Shown here piece after piece: positions 3,205 to 63,900 of a DNA stretch of 64,000 nt; position 1 is the first letter of the stretch; each line of letters starts with the position of its first letter. The position numbers were made by a program, and so were the translations under genes. Location: the NCBI GenBank assembly GCA_949775045.1, contig OX459098.1:19800944-19864943 (forward strand), written 5' to 3'. The stretch comes from Metridium senile. Its lineage: Eukaryota; Cnidaria; Anthozoa; Actiniaria; Metridiidae. The notes under the pieces were generated by a model. The model had not been told where the DNA came from. It ran no database searches and saw only the letters and a program-made list of their open reading frames with translations.

Positions 3205-4147
3205 CAAAAATCTAAAAGTAAATTATTTCTAAGTCTGATGTTCACTCGTCAGTAGAGATGGGGAGATGGGGGGAAGGGTAATATCTGAATTATGGACATG
3301 AAGCATTATATAATGACACATGTGCCATTATATAATCCTTCATGTTCATTTGCATTCCATTGTCCTTCTATTCTACACCATAATCCCTCCGCGTTTCAAA
3401 CGTAGATTATGCGGTATACAATGCTTTCCTCGTGACCAGAGAGGAGCAACGGATTGGACAAAATGGTCATGAATTATTAATGAGTTTTTTAAAAAAGATA
3501 TATCAATTTGATATTTGCTGTTTGCAAATTGTTGTATTTAGTGGAGCGTATTCAGGGTGGAATTTGCACATTACAATGCATAGTGATTAGGTACAGGGTA
3601 TAGAAGTTAACTAGTAATTAAGTTCGAAGGTATCTCTTTACTAGCCTTTTTACACATTTTCTTTTAAATGAAATATTATATAATTCTCTCACGTTATCCA
3701 TGTACACTAGGCTTGATATACATGGCTAAATAAATGAGATGCTCCCTCCTGGATATGGTTGTGCAGTTGTATATTAATAAGTTTATAAATAATTTGAATG
3801 CGGTTCACTGCAGAGTGATTAGAATATAAAACATTTTGGCTTTGGCGCATTTTTTAAAAGTTCAGTTTACAACAGTAATATGATAATGAAAATTTAAGGA
3901 TACCTTAAAGAAATTCAATTAAGAGAGAAAAAGTTTACGCAAAAAATAAAACAATTTAATGCCCTTAAATTAATTTTTCTGGCAAAAAAAGGCGAAAATT
4001 AATGCCCGCGAAATATGCCTGTTCCGATTTCGCGAAATTAAGTGTCCGCGAAAATTAGTACGAATAAGGTACTATGCAAAGTTTCATTAATAGGTCACTT
4101 TTAACTTATTCAACGAAAGTAAATGTTAATTTGTTTTAAAGTTTCAG
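3205..4147. other. Non-coding DNA upstream of first visible gene A exon
   Basis: No gene supported. A short inverted repeat around 3300-3350 (GCATTATATAATG type) and a fragment rich in TTTCGCGAAATTA near 4010-4070 are visible. Probably intron 1 of gene A. Confidence 0.4.
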
Positions 4148-4230: not shown

Positions 4231-6234
4231 GTATATAATATAATGGACGGCTTATTTTATGTATAAATGACTTGAATACTTGGCCCACTTAATAAACAGA
4301 CAAACGACGGAGAATGAAAGAATGGAGGAAAGAAGAAAGTAAAGGAGGACGGATCGATGGAATGTTTGAAGAAATTAATGAGTAAATGAATGAACATATG
4401 GTAGATGGATGGATGAAGAGTGAATGGATGAATGGATGGATGGATAAATAGATGGATGGATGAATAAATGGATGAATGGAGGAAAGAAGAAAGTAAGGAA
4501 GGATGGATCGATGGATTGTTTGAAGAAATTAATTAGTAAATGAATGAATATATGGTAGATGGATGGATGAATGAATAAATGGATGAATGGATGGATGAAT
4601 AGATGGATGGATGAATAAATGGATGAATGGAGGAAAGAAGAAAGTAAGGAAGGATGGATCGATGGATTGTTTGAAGAAATTAATTAGTAAATGAATGAAT
4701 ATATGGTAGATGGATGGATGAAGAGTGAATGGATGAATGGATGGATGGATAAATAGATGGATGGATGAATAAATGGATGAATGGAGGAAAGAAGAAAGTA
4801 AGGAAGGATGGATCGATGGATTGTTTGAAGAAATTAATTAGTAAATGAATGAATATATGGTAGATGGATGGATGAATGAATAAATGGATGAAAGAATGGA
4901 TGATTAATTAATGAATTATTTAATTAAAGAAGAAGTGAGTGGGTGAATAAATAAATGAATAAATATATGGTTGTATGGATCGATGGATTTTTTTCGATGG
5001 ATAAATAAATAAATGAATATGTATGAATGAAATCAGGCTACCATATCATTTCGCCCTATAGAGTCAATTCTCCTTGTATTACAAAAACATATCTTCCAAT
5101 TACGCGCTCATCTGGTTACTTATTAATTTCCAGATATCCCTAATCAAGAACATCACCTTCGCCGCACTCCATCCAGGGCCAAGAGGACCTCCAGGGCCAA
5201 GAGGACCTCCAGGGCCGAAAGGAATCAAGGGAGATCATGGTAGTTCTGGACCAGCTGGAGTTCCCGGTAGTAAAGGAGAGAGAGGGCCGTCCGGTCCAGC
5301 AGGTCCCCGCGGGCTTAATGGTATTCAAGGTGACCAAGGCATTCAAGGTCCTCAAGGTGTAAGGGGGGTGCCAGGCGTCAATGGTAGTCAAGGAGAACGA
5401 GGTCTCCAAGGTTTAAGAGGGGTTCCTGGATTCAATGGTACTAATGGAGAACGAGGTCTCCAAGGTTTAAGAGGGGTTCCTGGATTCAATGGTAGTCAAG
5501 GAGTACCAGGAATTCCTGGACCATCTGGTGCTGGTAACTTGAGTGCTTGTATTTATAAAAGCATCACCAAGAAAACGTCAGTAGGCAATAATTCAAAAAC
5601 CGATTCCAAGATAACAGAAACGATAGTAAGTACTAACTATATATTTATATCACTCACAGTTAAATTATCTATTATACAACTATTTCAAAAATCGTTGTCT
5701 TGGCCGAAGCTACGGTCCACACTCTAAAGCCTGCAAAGGATGTCGGTTATATATATGGACTTGATCATTTGTGATTTATTGCACGTTCTTTTAAAAAAAT
5801 ATTTATATTTATATCTACAACAACAACACCTTGTTATGGTCATATAACACAAACACGTATGCTATGAATAAAATCAAAATATGCTATGAATATATAGATA
5901 ACAAGAGAAGAAATACCGACATCCTTTGCAGGCTTCAGAGTGTGGACTGTGGCTTTGTTTGCGACAACGATTTTTGAATAGGTGTATACTATTTTAAATA
6001 TTCTATACGACTATTGATTGGTTGATTGTTTTACAGGACAGAAAGTACATTGGTGTAACATGCTCAACTAATGTCGCAGCAGTCCATGAACTGTCCAGCG
6101 GAACCGATAACCTGAACCAGAGATGGTATAATTGTTATTGTGCTGGGTCGGTCAAAAACCTTATTCCAACATGGCCATATCTATCTAAAATGCATTGTCA
6201 TATTCACTACTGGGACTGTCCTAAAATATCTTAA
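4148..6234 (+). CDS. Gene A: membrane-anchored collagen-like protein, 5'-incomplete
   Basis: Three exons are visible: 4148-4230, 5134-5625 and 6037-6234 (stop TAA). About 256 residues are seen. The first visible exon opens in phase 1, the phase in which the anchor-encoding exon 1 ends in genes B to D, so exon 1 probably lies left of the window. The chain is a linker of about 28 residues, an N-glycosylation sequon (NIT), about 40 uninterrupted Gly-X-Y triplets, then a Cys-containing tail. The last exon is a 65-residue domain with five Cys ending YWDCP. Genes B and C have two further coil exons that are not seen here; the space holds GATG repeats instead. The likely role is a cell-surface or pericellular trimeric collagen, inferred from architecture. 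The C-terminal domain matches no family I recognise. Confidence 0.82.
4290..4990. repeat. (GATG)n array with ~155-bp higher-order repeat, in gene A intron
   Basis: GGATGGATGAATGAAT-type units are organised into longer units carrying the landmark GGAGGAAAGAAGAAAGTA. The landmark recurs near 4321, 4471, 4627 and 4782, giving a period of about 155 bases. The array fills the intron where genes B and C carry two extra coil exons. Confidence 0.85.
5134..5625 (+). CDS. Gene A collagen exon
   Basis: A TTTCCAG acceptor and a GTAAGT donor bound 164 codons, phase 0 at both ends. The exon starts ISLIKNIT (NIT sequon aligned with VSNIT of gene B) and continues with about 40 perfect Gly-X-Y triplets. Three GER triplets occur in settings such as GSKGER and GSQGER. 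An 18-residue unit beginning GERGLQGLRG is tandemly duplicated. It ends with GAGNLSACIYK, aligning with [11 protein letters not shown] of genes B and C. Confidence 0.9.
5673..5988. mobile_element. MITE with ATACACCTATTTCA-type ends, in gene A last intron
   Basis: The left end (TACAACTATTTCAAAAATCG, then ACGGTCCACACTCTAAAGCC) is the inverted complement of the right end (GGCTTCAGAGTGTGGACTGT, then TTTTTGAATAGGTGTATA). A related, longer copy lies at 48068-48990, with a different element nested inside it. Confidence 0.8.
6037..6234 (+). CDS. Gene A C-terminal Cys-rich domain exon
   Basis: The acceptor is TTTTACAG and the exon ends in TAA. The 65 residues begin DRKYIGVTCSTN and end MHCHIHYWDCPKIS. 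Positions shared with genes B and C are I-G-x-x-C-S-x-N, an N/R-x-x-Y-x-C-x-C core, x-C-x, and the terminal Y-W-[DE]-C-P. A sixth conserved Cys lies at the end of the collagen exon. Confidence 0.9.
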   Translation, partial: DRKYIGVTCSTNVAAVHELSSGTDNLNQRWYNCYCAGSVKNLIPTWPYLSKMHCHIHYWDCPKIS

Positions 6235-16511: not shown

Positions 16512-16734
16512 TATTCTGAAATCTCAAGTAGTTATATCCGGTGTTTGTAAACAAACCTGCGTGAATACTGCAGTCATTCACGTTTACCGCCATTTCTTGA
16601 CCTCTCCGCGTTAGTTTACTCTCCTCAGGGGTCAAAACCTGCATACTCAAGGGAGCTCACTAGTTTTATACAGATATCGACGGTGGTCACTACAAGTCCA
16701 AACATATGAGTAAATTAATTACAAGTCCAGACAT

Positions 16735-17176
16735 ATGAGTAAATTAATTAAACCTAGGATGAATCGAATCAGTCCTACAGAAAGCTTAAATCGACAACAA
16801 GCCAACATGGCTAGCACAGAAGATTTATTTACAAGTAGCTCGAACCTTTACGAGATGACACAGCCCTTACCAAGGACGTCGTTAGAATGTATTAAAGAAG
16901 ACGACGGACAATCGCATGATGTCCCAGAACTATTTATCATTTCAAACCAGGAGAAGAAACGTGGTCCTTCCCCAGTGAGTAGCGATTGTAGATGGAATCT
17001 ACCTGACGACGACAGCGAGCTCTGCCACGACGATAAGCATTTGTACAGAAGGCTATGCTGCTTGATTAGTATCGTGTGTCTAGTGTCAATTTGTGCCTTT
17101 ATTCTTACTGTACTGATGCTGTTGGGATTTGTGAATGGATCGAATACAAGAAGATGTTCGTGTCCAGCAAATCAAG
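16735..17176 (+). CDS. Gene B exon 1: cytoplasmic tail, anchor, stalk
   Basis: 147 codons plus one base. The ATG lies in ACATATGAG. The acidic and Ser-rich tail is followed by [16 protein letters not shown] and further hydrophobic residues to [17 protein letters not shown]. Basic residues on the cytoplasmic side (YRR) favour N-in topology. NGS is a potential glycosylation site outside. The donor is AAG/GTATAC, phase 1. A 31-base direct repeat (ACAAGTCCA to TTAATT) just upstream creates a short ATG frame at 16705 whose stop overlaps this start. A second in-frame ATG (MASTEDLF) lies 24 codons in. Confidence 0.75.
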
Positions 17177-20100
17177 GTATACAAGTAATAAATGATATAT
17201 GATATACCCATTCAATAATATAATATATACATCTTATTTATTCCTTTGAAAACAGTACACATTCTCCCTGCGTATCGTACAATACAAATGATAACTGATA
17301 TAAGATATCCATTCAATATATAATATATACATCGTATTTATTCCTTCGAATACATTACACATTCTTGCTGCGTATCGTACAATACAAGTGTTAACTGATA
17401 TAAGATATCCATTCAATATATAATATATACATCGTATTTATTCCTTCGAATACATTACACATTCTTGCTGCGCATCGTACAATATAAGTTATAATTGATA
17501 TAAGATACCTATTCAATATATAATATATACATCTTATTTATTCCTACGAATACAGTAGTCATTACCAAGTAATAACTGATATAAGATATCCATTCAATAA
17601 TAATATATAATAATCATTCCTTCGAACTAAATACAGTACACATTCTATCTGCGCATCGTACAATACTAATAACTGATATAAGATATCCATTCAACAATAT
17701 AATATTATATATAATTAATTAAATATATATATAATTATTCCTTCGAAAACAGTACTCCTTCTACGTGCGTATCTTCCAATCCGTCACTGACGACTCAATA
17801 TTACGAACAACAAGTGTCTCAGACATTCAGAATTTTACAGAAAATGTACAATAAAGATATCTTGAGAGTAAAATCCTTTCTGTATAAAAAGTGACTGTAT
17901 TTGAGCGCGCGTTTTTTTACACTAAGGGTAGAATTATCAAAGAAAGGCGATTATACTATTATGTAGTTTGCATTTTGTACTATGAATGGTATGTATTGAT
18001 AGGAACACCCACTCGATTTACTGATACCGATGGGCGGGAAACGACTGTACGACCAAAAGGAATGCCGGGATGACGCAAAAATGAGCTTACCACATCGGTC
18101 AATTCACTAAACGCAAATACTAAAAAGGCTTTAAGAAAGTAGTATATAGTTCAGGTTAAAATAATATGTTCGTTCGTACATTTCGTGACGATGAGGCTTC
18201 CGTGAGTGAGGGAAAGATCTAGTTTGATAATAAACCACAGATGTTGGAACTTCTCTGGTTAACAAATGTCTGAAGAGCTAGATTCCAACTACAAAGATTA
18301 TACTTCAACCTATCCTGAGAAAACAGACGTCCTTTCGCTCCTCTTAATTTCCCCCGCGAAACTAATTTCTCGGCTAGGGGAAGAGGAGCGAAAGAACGTC
18401 TGTTTTCTCAGGCCTGCTTACTTTAACCATGACCTAAATACTATGTGTTAGAGTTTTATTTTTTCAGTTCAGGACACTTTTATTACAGTGGTCCCAGGCT
18501 GTAAGCAATTACAAATTAATAATAGTTACACGAAATGTGATTCTGATTTTGCGCATTCTATACTAGCTATATATTGGCGGGACTGGAAAGAGGCTGAACA
18601 GATCGCAGCGGACAGGCCAAAGTGGAGGGAGTTGTTTCTCGCCTCATGCTCCGCAAGGAGCTAGGAGAAAAAGAAGATACTGGCAATACTTTTCGATATT
18701 TTCATACAAATGGCCAAATTTGAAACAGTGGGTCAAAGTCACTAGATGTCTCGTAGTTCCATTTACACTTGACTATTCAACTGAAAAGAGTTACTAATGT
18801 GGGTTATCTTCAGCAAAGAAGAACGCTATGAAAAGCAGGTTCAGCAATCCAATGACCGAGATGCATATAACGCTACATTATCTGACAAACGTGAAACTAT
18901 TGAATGTAATCCAAATCTGGGTCAATAAGCTAGTTCTTGACCATGATATGGTCCGGAAAGACAACCTTTAATACTTTAAATAGTACATGTCTCAATTACT
19001 CCCAAAATGAACTCAGCTTTTCTTACTTTACAAGTGACAATAGCAAGTTCTAAAAAGGATAAACGCCGGCCCGAATCGTCAGTAAGGTTTACTTACTTTT
19101 TGTAATAGAAATAGAGATAATATTAATGTTTTATACTTCTATTGCGCAATTATCAATGTGGATATAATCAAATACGCACATAATACGACCAACGTCCGAA
19201 TCGTCAGTAAGCTTTTAACTCAGTTCTTATATGATTTCAAAGACTAACCTCCCAAATGTAAGTAAATTTGTAATTTTTAAGTTTTTTTTAAAGGATTAAC
19301 GTACGTGCGTCAATACGTTTTTGCTTTTACACGGTGCATAGCTTTCCTTTGTTAATAGCCCTTTGGTTTAGTTTTATGGTAACTAAAAAATGTTATCGAC
19401 AGACAACCATTTCAAAGTCTGTTGTTTTATGTTTGTATAGTTTGGTACACTTGCTGCAAACAGGAAACCACAATAGTAAACCAGAGGGAAAACTTTCCTT
19501 GAGGTTCTTTAAACATCCTGTTGAGTTTTATAAAAACATTGACATTATTCAACAGCTTGACGGAGAGCAGAATATTTGAACATTAAAAAAATTGTAAGAC
19601 GGAGGAAGCGGGAAGAAGACACTTTATTTTTTTAAGTTTTGTACTTTACACAGTTTGAATTTTTATCTCAAACTGGCCGGACGTCCCCTATACTTTCTTT
19701 CATTGGTTTGTTTGCAGGCACCATGTAGCTGCTATATTCTATACTGTTGTCGCCATCTAATTCCCAATAATAAATCATATTGTGACTAGTGGGTGACAAG
19801 TGTAAAACGTCCCGTAGTAACATAATGGGGGTTCTATTTGAAAGAGTATGTGCAGCCCCGAGGAAGAGCTAGCCGTACGCCAGGTCATGCAATAAATGAA
19901 TGAATGGATGGATGAATGGATGAATGAATGAATTGATGAATGAATGGATGGATGGATGGATTGATGGATGAATGGATGGATGGATTGATGGATGAATGAA
20001 TAGATTAATGTATGAATGGATGGATGGATGGATGGATTGATGGATGAATGAATGAATTGATTAATGGATGGATGGATGGATGGATGAACGGATGAATGAG

Positions 20101-24326: not shown

Positions 24327-27300
24327 CGATCAGTCAGTGGTTCGAGTCTTGTATTGTAGATTGTTAACGTTGTTTAATGTTGTTGTTGTTGTTGTATTAT
24401 TTTTTTTTGTAAGTGGGTGTTTTTTTTTTTTTTTTTTGTAAGTGGGTGTTGTTTTGTGTTTTTACTTTTTATTGTTATTAAATAAATAAGCATTATTTAT
24501 GAATTATTGTTTATTATGGACTACAATAATTATCTCCATCTACAGGTAAATCCCAAGGACTCAGAATTATTCCGTCTACGGGCGTTATACAACGAGACTC
24601 TCAATGAGTTGAACCAATTAAAACTTAAGGCAAGTTTACATTTGATGTACAATGATAATTATGTAGTGGCGTCCTTGTGGTTTCGAAATAGTGCCTAAGG
24701 GGCTGTTTATATGATGGCGAGTTGTCCCTGCTAGCCGGGATAACTCTTTTGTTTTGTGTTCCCCGGGGAATTCAAGACAATAGAGTTATCCCGGCTAGCA
24801 GGGACAACTCGCTTCCATATAAACAGCCCCTAACTGAATCGTTTGTTTTGTGAAAAAAAGTTAGAGCATTTTTCTTTCGCTCTGACTGGCCGATATAGTT
24901 CGCTATGACTCATTATAAAATATTTGATATAAACCGCGCTCTCTGATTGGCTGAGAAGCCTTCTCTATAACTCAAACAATTTGTTTGATTTGAACTACTG
25001 AATATTTTATAAAAGAATTCAAAAACTCATTAATAATTCATGAGAAATTGACAAAAGAAATCGTAACCGTGACGAGTGTTTTAACTGAAGATATAGATTC
25101 ACCCTAATTTACATAAACTTTAACCTGAATTTTCTCTAATAATCTTTCATAAATCCTTGATTTTTCTTTACAAAAACACAAAATAAGGTTGGAGATTTTG
25201 AAGCTGTTTAATAAACTCGCAGATCGTGTTTTATCAGGTCTAAAACCACTTGGCTTCGCCGTGTGGTTTTGAATCCTGATAAAACACTCCTGCTCGTTTA
25301 TTAAACATTACATACAAAACTCGGCAGTAGTGCTCTATGGAGTTAAAGAGCACTTGGAAATAACATAGAGCACGCTGCCTCGTTTTCTATTTCTTCATCA
25401 GAGCACGGAACACAAAAGGACTGTCTGAAGACATTTAGATTGAAAATATGAACTGCTGACTTAATTTAGTTTTATCATTAAATTGAATTGCACTTGGCAG
25501 TTTGTATTTTAGCAAAAAGGTTGCGTTTTGAGCAGTTTCTATGGGGCAATATCGTGTATGTTTTTGTTAAATATGTTCAGGCTTCACTGTTTTTCAGCCT
25601 CGGTACAATGTTGATTGAATTGGTTAATAAATACAACTACTTTAGATTTCTTGCTTTACTCTAAATTATCTAGCTATTTCTGACGGCACTTCATGTGATC
25701 TAAGCCTGTTCTTTCTTACTTTTCCAGGTCAGCAACATTACACTCACTCCTGGTCCAACTGGACCACAAGGCCAGGAAGGCCTCATTGGACCACGTGGTT
25801 ATAACGGTACCATAGGTCCACCTGGAAACCCAGGAAAAACCGGTCCATCTGGTCCTACTGGTCCAAGAGGATTGAATGGTACTCGAGGTCTTCCAGGACC
25901 ACAGGGACAACAAGGCCTGACTGGACCTCAAGGCCTGACTGGACTACAAGGACCACCAGGAGCTCACGGAAACAATGGTTCTTCTGGTCCAACTGGACCG
26001 CGTGGAAATGCTGGAACTACAGGACCGCAAGGACTACAAGGAGTTAAAGGCCCTCCAGGACTTCAAGGACCACCGGGACTCCCTGGATCGCGAGGTGCAG
26101 GCAATTTTAGTTTGTGTGTGTACAAAAGGAAGGATAGCACCAGTGTGGGTTCAGGATCAAGTGCCGCTACTCAAGTGTTTCTCAACGAGCCAACAGTAAG
26201 TCTTTTATAGTGGATTCTCATTTTATAAAGGTCTTTTCTAAGGGACTACAATCTTGGCAAAAACTAGTGCGACACTTTTATAGTTTTCTCTATTTTGACC
26301 TTTACCTATACATTTACGCTATAATCCTCCCCTCCCCCCTCACGCAATGTTGGTTTTCAGTTAACATGGTTCCCTGATGACTGCCAGGCCAACATTGTGT
26401 AGTGGGGGAAGGGGGAGTGGCTTTAACAACAAATTCAAGATTTTCAAAGCAGTTCGTATCAAAGATATGCCTATTGTTCTGTTGCAATCTCAACCTGTTA
26501 AAAAAGAGAAAAAAATCTCTCTCAAAGTATTTTGTTGTTTCTCACCAAAAATACCATATATGGTAATGGCATTGTTTTCAAGATTGCATGCAGTATCTTT
26601 GATACGTGTCTCACTTAGTTTTTACCGAGATTGTAGCTTACAACACAACACATATATCAATATTCTGATAAAGACGTGCGTTCTTTATTTACCCCAAATG
26701 TGATCTTTGTAAGGTATTGGCCATGGAGAATCATTCCTCTATTCTGGAAAGAGAGCACAAGCTACAATATTTTTGTTCACATATTTGCAAATTTCTTTGT
26801 ATTTTAATAACAAATATGGAGGCCGTGAGACTTTTCGAGCACTAACAAGGGTCTGTTTACGCAGGCTAATATGGATGGTTCAGCTATATACGGAAGAGGG
26901 CACGAAAAAATAAAACATTGTATATATGCGTGTTGATTTAATGCTTTTAATCGCAATACTCCAGTTTAATGTTAACTAGCACCACTGTACTACTTAAGCC
27001 TGGTTTCCATATGATCGCTACGATCGCTGCGATCGCCGAAAATCAAGTTTGCCCATCAGAATATAGCTCAGAGTTCTTTATGATTAAACAAAATCGACTC
27101 TGATTTTTTATGTTAAGGTTTATTTTGTCAAATTTAAGCTTCAACCTTTAGTCAGCAGTGATATTTTTATTATTTCACAAAACCAGAGCGCCATAACAGC
27201 GATCCTGGGGACCGTAGCAATTATATGGGAACCAGGCTTTAAGAATGAGAAAATGAACCTTTTGTACAATAGTACTGCGCTGTTGTTCAGTGATATTATT

Positions 27301-32387: not shown

Positions 32388-33229
32388 TGCAGACTACCAA
32401 TTATTAGTTTTTCAGTATATTATAAATTAAACATCGCACGATCGTTTCGTACAATTTGTAATTCATAGATACTTGTGATCAATTTGAAAGCTATCAAATC
32501 CACCTTTTCTTACTAAAAAGAAGGCTAATTTGCATACAGATCACGTGGTATAAATGTCGCTTTGTGATTGGTTCAAACGAAAGTTAGGACAACTCTACAT
32601 GGTTTGGAAGTCGCTCATATAGAGAAATTTGTAAATCTTGGATTGTCTCGTTATTAAAATGGTTAAATATTACTCTGTTAGGAAGCACATATATACAAAT
32701 CTAAACATTAGATAGAGACTAAAGCTATCAATGAAGAAGTAAGGACTTTCCACGTGAAATTCGGCAATGGATCGACGTCAATGCCTTCAGCTACAATGCA
32801 ACGACGAAGGAAAAAAACAAACTGAAGATGTTGTTTTATGAAAGTTAAACCGGCAAAAAATCCTCTCAAAAGCCGACTATTGGCTGCAAATCATGGTTAG
32901 GTATATTTGTTTCTTTTAAAGGGCTACTGAAGTACCTAAATGACCCATTTTGAAGAGAAAATGCATTAAATTTAAAACTCAAAAATCGACTTTTCAGTGC
33001 AATATTATGTTTTTAGATTCCCGAATTTTCCATTTGAAATACCCGCGTTGACCTCTATGTAAGCCGCCATCTTGCGAGCCAGCAATTTCTCAGCGGACTC
33101 TCCCTTGACGTCATAACGTCAAGCTAGCTCGGCTAGCTCGTGTTGGAGCTCGTTGAGCTTGTTTTGATGTACGAATGAGTGATTGTTTTCTTGTTTTTCC
33201 CAACAATCTTTTATGTTGGTTTTCCGAAA

Positions 33230-36200
33230 ATGGTGCACTGTTGTGTGCCGAAATGTACAAACTATTCTGCGAAAACGAAGTCTGTGAGTTACCACATAAT
33301 TCCAAGGGATTCTAAACTACAGAAAGCTTGGATTGCTCGGCTGAGACGTGACAACCTTCCCCCGCTAGAAAACTGCTATGTGTGCAGTGATCACTTTGAA
33401 AAAGATTGTTTTGATTTAGACTTGAGAGAGAAAGTAACTGGAGAAAGAGGGAAAAGACGTTTGAAGCCCGATTCTATCCCAAGTATCTTCAATTTTACAA
33501 CTTCGAAAAGACCACCGAAGAGAAGGTCCAGTACAGAGAATCGTTCATTTCAAAAACAAAGAAAACAGGTAAGAGCAGATTATTTTAAATGCATGTTATT
33601 TAGTCTATTTTGGCATATGTTTTTTAGTCAAAAGGAAGTTTTAATCAGTCAAAATGACATATTTGTAGAAATGAATACGAAACCATGATAAATACTCAAG
33701 TATTGTGAGTCAACACTGCAAAAAGTTATCATCCACTAGAATCCCAATTACTTAAACTTAGGTCTACCCGGTAAGTAGTAAACTCCAACTTAAATTCAGT
33801 AGCGGTTGTACTTGATCCAAGTGTATTCTCACTAATTTTCAGTGATTTGTTTCTTGAAAGAGTTGAACCTGGACTTGTAATAAGTGATTTTTTTTAGCAA
33901 ATATTGACACTTGCAAGTGAACTCTTTTTGCACATATCTCGAAACACAATATATTCGTGATTGAATATATTCGTGATTTAAATTTCACATATTTTGATTA
34001 TAACCTCTAAAATGTACACTTAATAATATTGCAATAAAAAGTCAGAAGAATGCACTTCAAAAAATTGAATAAGATTAGACATTTATTATAAATATAAAAT
34101 TTCATAGATTTACTCACAATTTAATCTAAATCCAAATTATAGAAAAAGATATGTATTTTTATGGTCGTGTATTTGTTTTGGATATTAATCTTTGAATTGT
34201 AAAAAAAGTTGGCAATTACAATAAGTTAATATATTTTATCTTTGTATTTTAATTTGATGTTTTTGTATTAGTTAGGTGTATTCAAATGATTGCAATTGTG
34301 ATAGTGTCCTCACATGAAAAAGAACATTAGTTATTAAATAAGAAATGAATACCAAACGAAAGAGCTTAGTTTGAGTGATCTTTTTTAATTAATCCCTTTT
34401 CCAACAAATTGCAAAAGTAAGGACAACTTTTTTTGCTATTTAGTGTGCACACAAGCAATAAATATACTAGTCATCCAATTGGTATTGAATTATTTCTTAG
34501 CAACATTTACTTTCATAATGCACATACTTTTCTCATATACCTTATTTCTTTGTTGTGATAGGTTTTAGAAGAACTACTCATTCCCAGCACTAAATCAAGT
34601 ACATGTACTGATGGTATTACCAACAATAATGTTCAAGTGAATACTGATGATTTACTTGCACTGGATGATGTACCAACAGCAAACTTAACAAGGGATGTTG
34701 GCACTCAATGTTGCCTGGATCAACAAATACAATACATTATTAGAGCTAATGCCTCAACTCAGACAGACAATAAATCAGATGAAGTAGATGAACCTAACAA
34801 CTGCATGCCCATAGAAAACCCTGTGTATGTTGCTTCATGGCTGGTAAAACAAGACCATAGTTATGCTAAAAATTATACATGCAATGATATTGAATCACAA
34901 CCACAATCAGTTCAGCCTAATGAACTCTCACAAGAGCTGCTGGATAAGGAAGAAGAGACAAATATTGATGTGGACTTAGATGATGACAACAATGACCAGG
35001 ATTTCACTTTGCCTCAAGACTACAACACATCCACTGATACTGACACTGATCCTGGAATAATGGAAAACAATTTTGCTGAGGAAGCCAAGTATTTAGTTTT
35101 TAACTCCTCCTTGAGACAGTTGTTTAAGTACTGCATGAACTGTGGTGAAATTGTGGTTGATGTCAATTATTCTTTCACTGGAAGCCTGGTCTCTGTCACA
35201 ACGACATGCATGAAAGGACATGAAGCTACATGGAACTCACAGCCAATTCTCAACAACCATTCTCCTGTTGGTAACCTTTTGATTTCATCTTCAATTCTTT
35301 TCACAGGGAACACTTTCGGTAGCATCAAGAACTTTGCTTCTTGCTTAAATCTGAAATTTTTAAGTGAAAGAACATTTTACCACATTCAAGATTGTTACTT
35401 GTTCCCAGTTATAAATGACATGTGGAGTAAAAAACATGAAGAGGTTGTTCAAGATCTGAAGCAAAAAGATGTTGTGAAGTTAAATGGAGATGGACGCTGT
35501 GACAGTCCTGGGCATAATGCAAAGTATGGGACTTATACCTTCATGGACAGTGACACCAGTAAAATAGTTGAATTTAAAGTAATACAAGTAACTGAAGTTG
35601 CTAACTCTAATGCTATGGAGAAAAAAGGCTTTGAATGTTGCCTTGAATCACTAATTGATGAACAAGGAGTGTCCATACACACTATCACAACAGACCGCCA
35701 CCTTGGTATCAATAAGGCCATGAATAAAGAACACCCAGACATAAAACACCAGTATGATGTTTGGCACTTTTCCAAATCCATTGTCAAGAAACTTAACAAG
35801 AAAGCCAAGCTGAAAAGCAATACAGAACTTACCCAATGGATCCAGTCTGTATCTAACCACCTCTGGTGGAGTGCAGCTACATGTGGAGGAAATGCTAAGC
35901 TTTTGGAAGAAAAGTGGCTATCTATACTGAATCATATCTGTAACAAACACTCATGGAGAAGAAGGCGTGGGCAGTTATACCACAGGTGTAGCCATGCACC
36001 TCTTTCACAGGCACAGAAGAGGACAACTGCATGGTTAAAACCAGAAAGTTCAGCATTTGTTGCTCTGGAGGGAATTGTCACTGATTCAAAGATTCTGTCA
36101 GGTTTAGCAAAACTTACAGATTTTTGCCACACAGGGAATCTTGAAGTATACCATTCAATGATGCTCAAGTACCTTCCAAAAAGGGAGCACTTTTCTTACA

Positions 36201-36535
36201 AAGGCATGGTTGCAAGGACTCAACTTGCAGCCATAGACAACAATGAGAATGCTGGGAGAGGCCAGGCTGTTATACGGAAAGGTAACAACATTGGTGAGGC
36301 TAGATACAGGAAGTGCTTTCCTAAAGCCCACAAAAGCTGGGTGGTAAAGCCTATCATGCAAACCAAGACCTATGCCTTTTTACCAGAAATGCAACAATCT
36401 GTTTTAAATAATTGCCAAGATGGTACTGTTGTTGGACATGCAGCAGAAATTAACCTACCACATAACATTGCCAGTGAACCAGCCCCTGAAAAGCAGGAAT
36501 TGATACGTCGGCATCGATCAAGATTTAATAAGTAA
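33230..36535 (+). CDS. Kolobok THAP-domain transposase
   Basis: Two exons, 33230-33568 (donor GTAAGA) and 34562-36535 (acceptor GTGATAG), phase 0, about 770 residues. Residues 1-94 form a THAP C2CH zinc finger: C4-x4-C9, W34, C52-x2-H55, and DSIPSIF in place of the AVPTIF box; this domain binds DNA at the element ends. A Lys/Arg-rich tract follows. A second Zn-binding motif CMNC...CMKGH sits near 304-333. Candidate catalytic residues are D in LNGDGRCDSPG (about 423), D in TTDRHLGI (about 491) and E in HTGNLEVYHS (about 641), followed by the LKYLPKR motif, the pattern I know from Kolobok-like transposases. Both exons are open with good splice sites, so the copy looks intact or recently active. 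Cut-and-paste function is inferred from family. Confidence 0.85.
33569..34561 (+). other. Transposase intron
   Basis: About 990 bases, AT-rich, bounded by GTAAGA and GTGATAG. Nothing recognised inside. Confidence 0.7.
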
Positions 36536-37028
36536 TTTATCCCGCACAATAGAAAAAAAACACAGCCAAACAGGAAACAGTATTCAGCCAAAAGCAATAT
36601 TCAACTAATCATTCCCATGGAACATTGCAGCTATAAGCTCTGTTTCTATAGTGTGGGAGAAAATACTTATTATTTAGTACTATGTACATTAATAATTGTG
36701 CATGAGATTGCATTGATAGAGACAGTCATTGGTACACACGTAGGACCACTATTTTATGTAACTTAAGCTGCAAGTATTGTAGTTTTTAATCCAATGTTGA
36801 AAACATTATTTTATGTTGGTGACAAACTTTCCCTCAATTTGCTGAGTGGTATGTGACAAGATGATGTAAGTCTGTTCTCTTATTGATCACAGTGAATTTA
36901 CCAACCAAAGCACAAGAATTCACACAAGTGTTTTGAATGTCTTACATTTGATGTTTATTGTACAGTAAACACGTGTAAGTACTAACAATTTAGGCAAAAT
37001 AGGTCCTAATTAATCAGGACTATTTGTG

Positions 37029-37278
37029 CACAGGCAGCCCAAGCAATGCACTTTTACAGTAGAGATATGGGAGAAAAAAATCCATATTTTTTATTGAAAT
37101 AAATTTGAACATGTTTCAATCCTGTGTTGTTGTTAAATTTATTTGTTATCATTCTGAACAACAAATACATTTAACAACAACACAGAATTGAAATATATTC
37201 AAATTTATTTCAATAAAAAATATGGATTTTTTCCTCCCATATCTCTACTGTAAAAGTGCATTGCTTGGGCTGCCTGTG
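37029..37278. mobile_element. Near-perfect palindromic MITE, CACAGGCAGCCC ends
   Basis: 250 bases, almost completely self-complementary. The ends CACAGGCAGCCCAAGCAATG / CATTGCTTGGGCTGCCTGTG are flanked by ATTTGTG on both sides (37022-37028 and 37279-37285). It lies in the spacer between the two Kolobok genes. Confidence 0.9.
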
Positions 37279-37867
37279 ATTTGTGTAACAACACTGACCT
37301 TAAATCTATTTGGATGTATTCAAACACAACATAATCCCCCATTTTGGCCACAGCACTGTTTCATGACTGAACAAACAGGTTCTTATATTTTGGGGTATTA
37401 AAATCCAAACTTCCTGCTTAACTGTTCTTAAATCACTCATCTGTGGGTGTTTACTGTATGGTTAAACTTAAATACAGTAAAAACCCACATATAAGAACCA
37501 CTATTTTTCGAGGTTAGGTTAAAGTGGTTCTTATCTAATTGGTATTTAGTGAGAAATTAGGCTAAGGTGGTTCTTAACTGGTTCTTATTTACAAAGCAAA
37601 AACAATTTCCCTTATATAGTTTTTTATGTAATATAAATTGTTATGTAGAAGCATCTGAATGATGAATGTATTCTCATTGAGAACTAACTGATAATACATT
37701 TGTAAAACATTTTTCTTGCATTGATTTTAAATTTGGTCATATTCGAACTCAAATTATACATTTTTCAAATGACCAAATAAATCTTGAAACCTTTCATATA
37801 AGAACCAGTCTAGATTTTTAGCTTAAAGTGGTGCTTAAAAAGCAAAGTTTAGTGGGTTTTTACTGTA
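37279..37867. other. Kolobok spacer between convergent genes
   Basis: TACAGTAAAAACCCACATAT near 37476 is mirrored near 37850 (GTGGGTTTTTACTGTA), with repeated AAAGTGGTTCTTAT and TTAAGTGGTGCTTAA-like words between. This is a probable further small fold-back element within the transposon. Confidence 0.5.
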
Positions 37868-39440
37868 TTATTCATGAGAAAAATGAAAGCCTTCAAATAT
37901 AAAATCGTCTTCTAGTCCGGGCGGAGGGAAGTGGGCTCTTATACACATTACTGCACAAGATGGCATGACAACACGTATATCTTTCCCTAGAAAGCCCCAG
38001 CACCATCTAACTAATTGACGATATGCAATATGTCTCAACTGTTTGTGTTCAGGTCCTTCATAGGCATCTGCATATTGTTGTTTGTACTGGAACCATGCTG
38101 TCTTCAATACCCATTTGTTTAAACACACTGATTTAAATCCAGGGTGCTGTGTGATACAGGTTGGGATTGCTTTGTTTACAAACATGGGCCCATCATTTGG
38201 GAGGCTCTTACATGTAGTAATAATGGCATTGATTTCTTGACAGCATATGCACTCTTCTTCTCTATCCATAACTGTGCAGTTATCACATTGACACCTAACA
38301 CAACAATAGTTAATAATAAACATTAGTTAAACAACTCAATAGATTCTGTTGCGGTTTTCAATTTTTTCATATGTTAGTTATTATATACAGTTTTTCTTTG
38401 AACACAATGCAAATTGTTTAATTATAAACAAAACACATAGCAGTACTGTATATAAATGAATAAAAAATATTCCCCTTGTCTGTTGACTATATTTCTTAAT
38501 TTTTGCTTTTGTTGTATTTTGTTAAAAGATTTGTACGCTGTTTATTGTCGCTATTTTTTTGATTGATTTAAATTACTTTGATGAATGTGTCACCACTGAT
38601 TAAATAGATGAGGAAAATGCAAGACTGAATAACAATCTAGAGGAATTAAAGGTAAATGTTTTATTTATTTATTAAATTCTTATTTATATCTTGTTGGAAT
38701 ATACTAATAAGCAAATGTGTGAGATTTTCACTATCAAAAGCATATGAAATCTACATGTCGAATTTACATGTCGGATTTCAATTCGATTTCAATTAGCTTT
38801 ATATGAATAAAAATAGCTAGATAAAGTTTCAAAATGACTAACTAAGGGAACTAAATGTAGTTTATATGTATTTTAAACAATTTTAATTGTTTTAGTATTA
38901 AAATATAATTTCCTCGATTTCGAGATGCCCTATTTTGTATTTTGACAATTTCATTAAATTCCTTTGCTTCGTGACTCGTATTAAATCCTCGAACTATGTA
39001 CATTGAGTGACCAACATCAATTTTATTTCCAATCGATTTTCTAAAAGGATGATTAACAAGGTAGTTTATAAAACTGACAAAAGACTCAACGACTTGTTGT
39101 CGATAAAAAGTAAAAAAGACAGCCAACCGTGATACTACAGTACATATAGATGGTGCCATTCAAAGTCATACGCTAGCATAAAAAATACTTTATTAAAGGC
39201 TGATACGTACCATTCTGAACTTGTAAGTCGACTATCTTCAGTTTCATCATTACTTTGTGAGATAATTGCTTCTTGCTCGCTGTTTTCGTCGTTTGAAAGT
39301 TCCAGTTGCGGCTCGTATTGGTATGGTTTAATACCAAACTCATTACTATCCTCCACAAACTCCTCGAAATTGTTATCGCTGCACGATGAAGAGCTAGTAG
39401 ATTCTATAGATTCAGAGTCTGTACTACGATCTGAATCCAT
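37868..39440 (-). CDS. Transposon-borne P2X7-type ballast-domain protein
   Basis: Minus-strand exons are 39440-39211 and 38294-37868 (stop). The junction completes a Trp codon in phase 2, with donor GTACGT and acceptor GTGTTAG. The 218 residues have an acidic Ser/Asp/Glu-rich N-terminus containing IKPYQYEP. A Cys-rich region follows: W77-C-x-C-x2-C, then C92-x-C-C-Q-E-I. Next come TCITQHPGFKSVCLNKWVL and TAWFQYKQQY, and then RQLVRWCWGFLGKDIRVVMP. These match the pattern I know for the C-terminal Zn/GDP-binding ballast of vertebrate P2X7 receptors, a domain also known as a stand-alone protein. No receptor transmembrane part is present. Its place between the Kolobok TIRs argues that it is an accessory gene of the element. 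Its role in transposition or host interaction is unknown. Confidence 0.8.
38295..39210 (-). other. Ballast-gene intron with plus-strand exon-like stretch
   Basis: AT-rich intron. On the plus strand 38608-38651 looks like a small coiled-coil exon (see findings). Confidence 0.4.
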
Positions 39441-40689
39441 TTGTAGCAAATTATATTTCAATCTTTCCCCTCTAATCGCGATTTTTCAAAGTAAGTTATA
39501 TCCTTAAATACAAAACTATTCACTTTGCAAGCACCACTGCAGTCTGTGACGTTATGACGTCACGCCCCTGTTTTTCTGAGCCCGCGATAAAAGTGCAAGA
39601 TGGCGGCTTACATAGAGGTCAACGCGGGTATTTCAAATGGAAAATTCGGGAATCTAAAAACATAATATTGCACTGAAAAGTCGATTTTTGAGTTTTAAAT
39701 TTAATGCATTTTCTCTTCAAAATGGGTCATTTAGGTACTTCAGTAGCCCTTTAAACGGTGTCAGTTAAAACTAAATTTTGAAGAAACGGCTAAAAAATTA
39801 CAAATCTATTTGTCAAGTTTTCGCTTATAATTTCAATCAAAAACTCCAAAGATGAGTAAAAATTTCAAACTTTGAACTTCTACTTTCTAAAGGAAGAAGA
39901 AATACACTGAAACTAAGACTGCAATGAACATGTTCAAAGCTGCGAGTTTTTCAGTGAATCACAAACGATTAGCTATTAGTTTTTCTATTTTAGAGCTTTA
40001 GGTTGAAGTTTGCAAACTACCCGTGAAATTGAAAATATAGCTCATTAATACCTATTTTGAAATTGTCTGGCTGTTAGGTTTATGTTCCACGACTCTAGAA
40101 CAGTAATTTGATGATTAAAAATGTTATCTTTGATTGCCGTTCAAGCCGTGAAAACAGCGACTATGATAAAACTAAGCAAGCGAAGCGAAAGAAAATGATC
40201 GCTTTTCCCGCCGAGTCGCAGGATAAAAATTGCTCTTTTTTAAAGCAAAACTCGTGTATTAGCAAGTTAATCTTTTAAACTCTTTGAAGTTAAAATTACT
40301 TGCTTTGGTCGATTTATCTTTTAATGCTCGGAAAATAATGAGAAAACCTACCTTTTTTCAAAAATTATCAATTGCAAGTGGGTGTTATTCAGCATTCTGT
40401 AGCTGAATCCATTGTCGATCCATTGCCGAATTTCACGTGGAAAGTCCTTACTTTTTCATTGATAGCTTTAGTCTCTATCTAATGTTTAGATTTGTATATA
40501 TGTGCTTCCTAACAGAGCAATATTTAACCATTTTAATAACGAGACAATCCGAACTTTTCCAAACCAATGTAGAGTTGTCCTAACTTTCGTTTGAACCAAT
40601 CACAAAGCGACATTTATACCACGTGATCGTATGCAAATTAGCCGTCTTTTTAGTAAGAAAAGGTGGATTGGATTTCCCTAAAATCACTC

Positions 40690-47134: not shown

Positions 47135-57492
<10,358 letters not shown>

Positions 57493-59980: not shown

Positions 59981-60499
59981 ATATGTCTATGTCATGCCAT
60001 ATAGATTCAATATTTGATGAAAGCAGAGGATATATAATAGCAATGTAAAGCAAACACGTCCATATCTAGTAAAATCTCCAATGTGTTTTCTTTTATAACT
60101 TTGACACTAAACTTTCAATAACTATAATAATAATAATAATAATAACTTTACTTTATAATTTAGTTGGGTTTTTAAGAAAGACAAACAAACAATAAATGAA
60201 ATCAATAATACAGTAATAGTCTCGATTGTTTTTAACGCGTTAGATTAAAGACAATCCAATGGAAGATACATAGGAATGACATTATGTGAATACTTTTGGT
60301 TGATGTCGTACTTCAAAGTAAACACCATCCTGAAAGTATGTCAAGAGCATTTCAAAAGTCCCATAACATAGGATCTTATTTCTTAATTGAAAACACAGAT
60401 AACAAGGAAGGAACTTTGGTAGAACTCTTAGCCTGAGTATAACCTGATCCTCAGGCTATAGAACTCTGTGACGCAAAACTTTAGTGGAATGCTGCTGGA
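59981..60499. other. Upstream region of gene D
   Basis: AT-rich with a short (ATA)n at 60123-60145 and a TAGCCTGAG/CTCAGGCTA mini-palindrome at 60430-60460. Any promoter must lie here, but no clear core element was recognised. Confidence 0.35.
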
Positions 60500-60905
60500 A
60501 TGGCTACTAGAACAAAAAGAGTCCAGGTCAGGCCCAAACCGAAGCCTGACATCACGAAACCTATGGTATTGAATCTATCTGAGGAGACGTCTGTTAGTTC
60601 TCTCCATTCGAGCGACTCGGTGCTGTCTTTAAGCAAGGTAAACACCACGAACGACAAAGGATGGCTTCTGCAAAACGGCTCAGGGCAGACAACCAATGGT
60701 CACCTGGTCATGGAATTAACACCTAAAGAAGAACGTCCAAGCTTCAAGAAAGAGAAAAACTTCAAGAAAGAGAAAAGTTGTTGTGTTCAGTTCAATGTGT
60801 TGTTGCTTTACGTGATGACCATGGTATCACTTTGTACACTAGTAATAGTAGTTCTGGCTGTTGTTGGAATGGTCAAAGTTGATGCTTGTAAATGCTGTTC
60901 TGAAG
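60500..60905 (+). CDS. Gene D exon 1: cytoplasmic tail, anchor, Cys stalk
   Basis: MATRTKRVQVRPKPKPDITK start, uninterrupted to the GTACGA donor (phase 1). Close paralogue of the gene C first exon, but without its frameshift. Confidence 0.9.
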
Positions 60906-63900
60906 GTACGATACGATCTCATTGTCTTTTTTTCTTTTTTTTTTATTATTAATAACTAACACACAAAAAAAATTACAATTAAAGAATGTCACAATAAATA
61001 TGACACACGAGAAGACTACTATAACTAATTTTGTTTTTGTATTTTTTAATAGAATAACTAAATATTAATTTATTGATAACTAACAAACGAGAGGAAAAAA
61101 ACCACGATTGCTACGAGTGGCTTTATTAACAGAGGGTACCGGCGTATTTACAAATTAAGGTACTCTTTCATGGCCCTTACAAAATTTAAATTACAAAACA
61201 GATGAATACGATAGAAAAAAAAACTAGAAAAAAATTCAAAAAACCTGACATATTCGTACATTTTAGAAACTATATAAAATTGTCATTGGTATAATATCAT
61301 ACTTAAGAGAAATGTCATACTTAAGAGAAGATAAGAAAGTGTTATTTTCCTTATTAATGCTCAGATCGGGATTTATGTTGAGTTCATTTAGAAGTTTAAT
61401 AGAAGTATAGAAAAAGGTAACTGCTAGATAGCAAACTATCATCGCCGTGTAGATATCTTTAAACCCCACCAAACTTACACAACGACTTCCTACACTGTCT
61501 ATATACAGTCCCTACTCTTGACATGCAAAGAATTCCAAAACAATACTTACTTGATCGATAAAACTAGAACTAAAGTCAACAAGTTTTATCACACTGAATG
61601 AGTGTCTGTCTCTTTGTTGAATTTTGTCGAAGAGTTGTTTGGAATTGTTCGAGACTGGCCGTATATTTTGGAAATCAGTTCATTTCGTTTGTACATGCAT
61701 GTGCATGAATTGAAATCACAAACCTGCATAAAACACAAAAAAAGTGTAAGTCAATCTTGCAGAGTTCAAGCACAAACAAAACATTTCAGTGAACTTTACG
61801 ATAGCTTCGACATTCCTAGCCTGCGTAAGCAGACCCTTATTAGCGCTCGAAACGTCTCCCGCCAGCAAGGTTGGCGGGAGACGTTTCGAGCGCTAATAAG
61901 GGTCTGCTTACGCAGGCTACGACATTCCAAAGTACTTGAATTTCTTGGTTTGAAGTAATATTACATCATATATTCCAGAACGGCAGACTTGTGAAGCTGA
62001 CACTTTCAACCTTGAAATAAACAGTGTGTCACTTTAATTGAGGACATGATTGTAATAGACTTAACCGGCTAACGCGTTGCTATGTACGTTTCCACCCAAT
62101 TCAAAACCTCTTTGAATAAAAACTTTTGTTCCAAACATTAATTTTCCACGTGATATCGAAATACATAAGACAAAGAATCTTATTCCCAAAAGATTTGAAT
62201 TTGGTGGAAACATACATAGCAACGCAACTAGCCGATTTGGTCTATCCATTTACCCTGCTAGAGGACGTTTGTCAACCCACCCAAAAGCGAAGGGAGAGGA
62301 CCCTGGGAACGAGGTTGGACGTTTGTCTCGCTGCTCTTCTATGAATAGAAGTAGTTTTGCTCTTTCGTAGAAGTCCGCGAGACAAACTTCCTCTTCTAGC
62401 AGGGTACAACTTATAATTATATTGCTTTAGTTTGAGCTGTTCCTTAATTTCTCAGGCTGAGCCTCGATTGTATGTAAACCAGTAAAAGAGTTGATATAAC
62501 CTTTGGTACTGTGTATTGTTGGTTGATTGTTCGCATTGTTTCCTCTACCAAGGACTGTACAGGTGCTACCGTAACAAAGATATGCCTATTGTTCTGTTGT
62601 CATCTCAACTTGTTAAAAAAAGAAAAAAATTTCGCGCGCTTATCTATGTATTTTGTTACTTCTAACCTACAATACCATATATGGTAATGGCATCGTTTTC
62701 AATACGGTATCTTTGATACGATACATAAAAATACATCACATGTACTATGAAGGCTTAGACTGAGCATCTTATTACTCTGAAACTAAGCTATTTTGTCGTG
62801 AGGGAAACATAAACGGTCCTTAATGGAATTTTTGTCGGTTTTTTATTCTTCTTACTGGGCTTGTTCCAGAAAGGTCAGCTTACTGTGTCCTGTAGTGTCT
62901 TGAAAGTACTTGAAAAGTTGATGTCTTTCTATAATTTCTTTTTAATATCAGCTGGCAGACAAGTTATTCAAAGTACGGCAGCGGTACGTATATCGTTACA
63001 ATCTTTGGCTAAAGTAGTTGGCACGATGCTAGCATTCATAGCCACTACTTTATTTTGAAACCCCCTTCCCCTACATCAATGTTGATAGGGAATGAAAGTG
63101 CATTGATATGTCAACCTTAAAGAATCAAAAATAGACTCCCCCTTCACATTTAAGGCCTATGGTCACTTACCGGCATGCTTTGCGTTGTTTATTTTGATTC
63201 AGTTGAGTGCAATAATTCATTTACAGTCCGTCGTATTACGAGGGGAAAAAAACGATAAACGATTTAGAAAGAAGGTAAATACCAACTCAAATCGTAAAAT
63301 ATATCAAAATGTCTGAATGTGCGTTTGATTTTCATGGAAATTCCACGAAATTCAATCAGTTTTTCGCGTGATAGCCTGCGTCACATCCGGTCTTTTCTCG
63401 GTTAGGGACGGACCATTTGATTTTTGATGGGGGGAGGGACCCAATTCCCCAAAAAATATCGAGCAAGGCCTTAACCCTTAAAAAAAATCGAGCACGACCA
63501 ATCAAGGCCAAAAAATATCGAGGATCTGTCAAAAAAAATATCTTACACACTGTATGTCCGGGAAAAAAAATCGACAAACCGAAAACTAGGACCCCTCCCC
63601 ATCAAAAATCAAATGGTCCGTCCCTTAGCCTTAGTAAAGTCCGGATGTGACGCAGGCTAGTAACGTATGTGACCATGGCTCTTTAATTTCTAATTATCGC
63701 ACAAGTACATGTTCTATTGTTTCATTGTTTTCAGGATAAAGAGATACAACATTTATGGTCTTCGTTGAACGAGACAAGAAGAGATTTGCAGATATTAAGG
63801 GGATCAAAGTACTTTGATCAGGCGATACAAAACATGACAATAAAGGTTTATGCAAGAACACTTTTAGAATCAGACTAGTACTGACTGACTGACTGACTGA

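Follow-up and report, generated by a model that had tools for sequence, protein, structure and literature searches.

In P2X7, an immune receptor of vertebrates, the inner tail consists of a zinc-binding domain, the ballast. Kojima and Bao (2022) gave the name KolX to the second protein of Kol0 Kolobok transposons, with Kolobok-1_XT as the type, and found it similar to residues 476-595 of P2X7; in the accessible parts of their paper P2X7 is derived from a P2X4-like gene to which KolX became fused, NANOR is considered a likely domesticated KolX, and the hosts of the lineage are given, after earlier work, as vertebrates, annelids, cnidarians and sponges (PMC9587614). Within the literature searched, the name KolX was found in that paper only. 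Rump et al. (2020) reported the ballast domain across animals; in the portion of their text available, the ZCD is defined by its cysteines and not by the GDP site, the P2X7 ballast is encoded in one exon, H547 is stated not to be found in invertebrates, and the word stem 'transpos' is absent (PMC7016195). The purpose of the zinc and GDP sites of the P2X7 ballast is described as unknown in the accessible part of a further paper (PMC9859053). Here we describe a Kolobok element with a KolX gene in a 64,000-nucleotide stretch of Metridium senile DNA (GenBank assembly GCA_949775045.1, contig OX459098.1, positions 19,800,944 to 19,864,943 of the forward strand), referred to below as the window.

The element measures 6,831 bp (window positions 32920-39750; Table 1) and is, very probably, a complete and recently mobile two-gene Kolobok DNA transposon of the Kol0 type. 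It is enclosed by an inverted repeat at 32915-33075 and 39595-39755 (161 nt with the TTAA counted, 100% complementary), and the terminal inverted repeats (TIRs) proper are 156 bp each and identical, with TTAA on both sides, which confirms the TTAA-flanked inverted repeats of the preliminary description. The Kolobok definition includes 5′-RR and YY-3′ termini (PMC9587614, available text), and AG...CT was found in 7/7 copies having both ends; the window copy also has the TTAA target-site duplication and a DDE transposase with the C/DxxH motif between the second D and E. The second protein was assigned to KolX by its ballast domain, rather than against a named KolX sequence. The TTAA, the RR..YY ends, the DDD/E transposase with DxxH and a ballast second protein are all shared with the Kol0 elements as far as PMC9587614 could be consulted; the difference is that the present elements are a separate family delimited within this genome, not against Repbase. 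The element type and its link with P2X7 were already published in 2022 (PMC9587614), and this copy is a confirmation of them. What is added here is a cAMP response element (CRE)-like motif upstream of both genes, an intron in a tryptophan codon that is missing from some KolX genes, the retention of three of the five GDP contacts, and very recent mobility; the available text of PMC9587614 holds nothing on promoters of KolX, on an intron splitting the W codon, on GDP residues or on the age of copies.

The exon borders of both genes were predicted from the sequence, without transcripts, and in both the distance from the element end to the start codon is 310 bp. The two transposase exons join to 770 aa without an internal stop and gave a Pfam THAP match of E=6e-19, which bears out the intact-looking THAP transposase first noticed; Mutator/MULE Pfam matches were slightly below their cut-offs. 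An alignment of 41 of the 120 listed relatives (471 found) revealed that C441, C476 and H478 are invariant, and they could fit a zinc finger downstream of DxxH. Among the matches listed was a named relative from acorn worm with 47% identity. In the fold search the P element transposase (6p5a) was Foldseek rank 5, and it was absent among the best 50 rows of a second structure aligner. The two enzymes are alike in their THAP domain and RNase H fold; the P element transposase differs in that a GTP-binding domain interrupts its own chain, and it needs GTP (PMC7776569, as far as accessible).

KolX, convergent with the transposase gene, is open over 218 aa in its two exons. It matched Pfam PF20478 (P2RX7_C) with E=1.4e-14 and 54.9 bits (cut-off 23.5), and the motifs W-C-x-C-x2-C, CCQEI, HPGF and RWCWG are all present, so that the two-exon gene with a P2X7 C-terminal signature was found as initially described. 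In the exon 2 ORF, PF20478 was the sole Pfam match to exceed its cut-off; the exon 1 ORF gave none, and a P2X channel domain was found by Pfam in neither. Judged by its sequence, KolX is no receptor and lacks a P2X channel domain. The seven cysteines that coordinate zinc in the P2X7 ballast are all present. In an alignment including 51 of the 120 listed KolX proteins (296 found), the zinc-cysteine columns have C in 38-52 of 52 rows, the remainder being gaps save for 4 substitutions. The predicted structure has the ballast fold and aligns with P2X7 residues 477-595 well ahead of all other matches listed, a likeness against which the modest Foldseek E-values must be set (best 4.7e-3, none below 0.001). 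The named KolX relatives listed are all from corals and anemones (48-57% identity), and most rows listed are unnamed. The public coral and anemone records P0009, P0010, P0013, P0016, P0017 and P0025, which are KolX-like, bear the name 'P2X purinoceptor 7(-like)'. At 201-205 aa, and with no domain but the ballast, they are not long enough to include a P2X channel, and these names are therefore probably misleading.

Two other assignments of KolX were tried and rejected. A hepatitis B core construct was the top PDB sequence match for the single exon-2 ORF (E=7.7e-4, against 9.7e-3 for P2X7), covering about 30 residues; it was dropped when the 52-row profile put P2X7 first (5.4e-5) and the construct at 0.018. 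As to viral or phage relatives, the sole viral-contig match (L059) has the look of a coincidental word match, the contig being GC-rich, and the best viral fold match to KolX had E=1.2.

Compared with the P2X7 ballast, KolX shares the seven zinc cysteines, the predicted fold and three of the five GDP contacts (equivalents of R546, H547 and R578); it differs in lacking the P2X channel part, in being transposon-borne, and in having V for R574 and P for K583, so that the full GDP site is not present. Rump et al., in the text available, deny H547 to invertebrates (PMC7016195), yet its equivalent was found in 52/52 aligned KolX proteins. The same paper describes an 'ancestral synteny' between ballast genes and two markers and, for Ixodes, a THAP-ballast gene model. 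As far as its accessible parts allow, both may reflect the transposon's own transposase and not host synteny.

The W of W-C-x-C-x2-C spans the splice junction, exon 1 contributing TG and exon 2 the final G. In another KolX family of the same genome the intron is missing (L008 and L058, with NNDWCQCSFC in a single frame), presence and absence being deduced from reading frames. The published proposal that the vertebrate P2X7 ballast came from such a gene is likely to be correct, and capture of the transposon domain by a P2X4-like gene, the route already published in the accessible text of PMC9587614, is plausible. Since the P2X7 ballast lies in one exon, an intronless KolX would have been an easier donor, and the existence of KolX genes with and without the W-codon intron is a small lead on the capture of a single-exon ballast.

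Using the left end as probe, the 389-Mb genome (169 contigs) was searched for further copies. This yielded six complete copies (the window's included); a further copy has an internal deletion (L014), another is truncated (L015), and L016 and L017 are end fragments. The complete copies sit in different flanks, and TTAA was present on both sides in five of the seven two-ended copies, the window's among them. Five complete copies differ from one another by 1-5 substitutions over roughly 6.8 kb, whereas the window copy differs from them by 22-25; from these counts the copies are read as two very young subfamilies. The preliminary description had suggested looking for the same gene pair in other copies and had considered that these might consistently lack the ballast gene; KolX is open in all six complete copies, and the transposase in five of six. 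L009 has a THAP exon short by 79 bp, and L013 a 15-bp in-frame insertion. That TIRs merely flank a host ballast locus by coincidence has next to no probability: the six complete copies have the same inside and different outsides, with TTAA at most borders, and no point in its favour was found. As six near-identical complete copies, the family offers a clean, recently mobile bench object for the role of the ballast domain.

The pairing of the two genes was analysed beyond this family. A protein search of the genome gave at least 68 transposase rows and at least 150 KolX rows, the best candidates only being scored; 68/68 transposase and 104/150 KolX rows, some weak, entered the analysis, and the KolX rows left out were mostly further exons or copies of families at 41-44%. 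This resulted in 91 KolX and 58 transposase loci, so the ballast gene is not confined to one fixed host locus, the other outcome initially envisaged. A scored transposase lay within 8 kb at 40/91 KolX loci (28/48 for loci with rows of at least 50% identity), and the orientation was tail-to-tail in 40/40. Close reading of KolX loci L048 and L049, which have no scored transposase, revealed clear convergent transposase pieces, while at L050 the evidence is one 57-aa piece (E=2e-4). KolX-only or piggyBac-borne elements were considered for these loci and dropped, since all three hold Kolobok transposase pieces, L050 weakly. Conversely, three transposase places without a scored KolX were inspected and two have one, a divergent KolX being present at L051 and L052. 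In a second family (L054) the terminal repeat is a different one, 133 nt long with the TTAA and 98% complementary; short end pieces excepted, the identities are 50-56% for transposase pieces and 70% for KolX.

Among eight KolX genes of this genome the synonymous proportion exceeded the nonsynonymous in 28/28 pairs, and four unsaturated pairs gave nonsynonymous to synonymous ratios (dN/dS) of 0.09-0.19 at dS 1.4-3.0, which are rough figures. As judged from these substitutions, KolX is under purifying selection and is maintained as a working protein between families; hence it is a core gene of the element and not cargo or a passenger. A host gene lately captured as cargo by one transposon family could account for the intron, which a host gene may have, and for relatives being named 'P2X purinoceptor 7-like' in databases, but this is very improbable in view of the tail-to-tail pairs with diverged Kolobok transposases of several families (also at L048-L052) and of the selection between families, as a recent capture would stay in one family.

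Several observations weigh against this picture of a mobile element with KolX as a core gene. L009 and L010, two of the seven two-ended copies, carry one altered TTAA base on one side. KolX is absent from L014 owing to the internal deletion, L015 has no match beyond element position 4141 and hence no KolX, and the end fragment L016 consists of KolX exon 1 only, without a transposase match. No scored transposase was found within 8 kb at 51/91 KolX loci (20/48 for the stronger matches), 19/68 transposase rows lacked a KolX row within 12 kb, and the family-2 copy C1:25312706 (L053) had no KolX match in the adjoining 2.7 kb. Transposase and KolX distances were uncorrelated across seven families over short shared columns (Spearman 0.17, reached by 952/5040 permutations, not significant), so that co-evolution of the two proteins is unsupported by this comparison of sequences.

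At L048 (3300-8501) KolX is near that of the window family and the transposase is distant. This mismatch may reflect an exchange of KolX between Kolobok families.

The CRE-like motif, TGACGTCA, lies 122-124 bp before both start codons of the element. Of 13 gene starts, drawn from nine families of this genome, 8 have the exact motif within 200 bp upstream and 12 a near variant, against expectations of 0.04 and 0.48 under a first-order Markov model of the same stretches; counted from its six occurrences in the 64-kb window, two of them inside the element, 0.24 exact motifs would be expected in 13 starts. The count was post hoc, with starts and variants picked after the motif had been noticed, and the KolX start of L048 has no such motif (1/13). 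The 13 starts are those identifiable, several of them located via the motif matches themselves; the family 3 KolX start (L055-L057), outside the DNA read, and L046 were excluded. An exact motif occurs at 2066 of L046, in a Kolobok copy whose transposase match is short and which has no placeable gene start.

The layout resembles that of MuDR of maize, which in the text available has two convergent genes, for the transposase and a second protein, with promoters at the inverted ends; MuDR differs in being a Mutator element of plants and in its second protein, mudrB, whose function is given there as unknown, and the comparison is one of layout only (PMC3440606). By analogy with its convergent genes driven from the ends, the CRE-like motif is read as a shared promoter of both genes, the alternative being a transposase site. 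A search of the open literature for Kolobok together with the cAMP response element found no paper. The motif at both ends is a small lead on how the element is run.

Each end of the element has the terminal repeat, then the CRE-like motif, then one gene, and in the mechanism proposed both genes would be switched on together from the matching ends. The transposase would pair and cut the ends and insert the element at TTAA (cut and paste), and KolX, with its acidic N-terminal tail and zinc-type ballast domain, would assist transposition. On balance we favour KolX as a dedicated accessory transposition factor, and to the same degree its expression in step with the transposase, driven by matching promoters at the ends. 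Its form (acidic tail, compact zinc-type domain, partial nucleotide site) would reasonably suit an adaptor in the transposition complex, and suits it better than a regulator outside the transpososome that holds down transposase expression or sets its timing, or that works against silencing by the host. The KolX-less copies L014, L015 and L053 would be expected of a regulator acting in trans, and the matching CRE-like motifs could tie both genes to one signal, but Pfam recognises no DNA-binding or chromatin domain in KolX (weak evidence), and we regard regulation as possible though doubtful. A further possibility is that the accessory factor is a guanine-nucleotide-binding cofactor, in trans the substitute for the GTP-binding insertion of the P element transposase. 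The three retained GDP contacts including the R-H pair, together with the Foldseek rank of the P element transposase, point in this direction and the two lost contacts against it; this reading is unlikely to be right. If it were true, the GDP site of human P2X7 would be a relic of transposon cofactor chemistry.

Table 1. Features of the Kolobok element in the window
Feature	Position	Strand	Remark
TTAA target-site duplication, left	32916-32919		
Left terminal inverted repeat, 156 bp, 5′-AG	32920-33075	+	100% complementary to 39595-39750
CRE-like double motif TGACGTCATAACGTCA	33106-33121		start 124 bp before transposase ATG; putative promoter
Transposase exon 1, THAP domain	33230-33568	+	
Transposase exon 2, DDE/RNase H domain with DxxH signature	34562-36535	+	
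Near-perfect inverted repeat, 119-nt arms, 96%	37029-37278		between the 3′ ends of both genes
Probable nested non-autonomous element, 18-nt perfect inverted ends	37471-37869		would reach into KolX stop codon
KolX exon 2, ballast domain (ZCD, P2RX7_C)	37868-38294	-	
KolX intron GT..AG, splits W codon of WCxCxxC	38295-39210	-	predicted from sequence
KolX exon 1, acidic and Ser-rich composition	39211-39440	-	
CRE-like double motif	39547-39562		start 122 bp before KolX ATG
Right terminal inverted repeat, CT-3′	39595-39750	-	
TTAA target-site duplication, right	39751-39754		

An inverted match corresponding to the hairpin at 37029-37278 is present in the five other complete copies too. Such a hairpin might block read-through between the convergent genes.

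Within the window, no tRNA and no Rfam match reaching the gathering score was found. On the + strand, collagen-like (GPP-rich) ORFs are located on either side of the element (5062-5727, 25704-26210 and 55204-56004) and are perhaps a tandem host gene array. Two ORFs with a hydrophobic stretch (16714-17202 and 60485-60952) perhaps encode membrane-anchored proteins.
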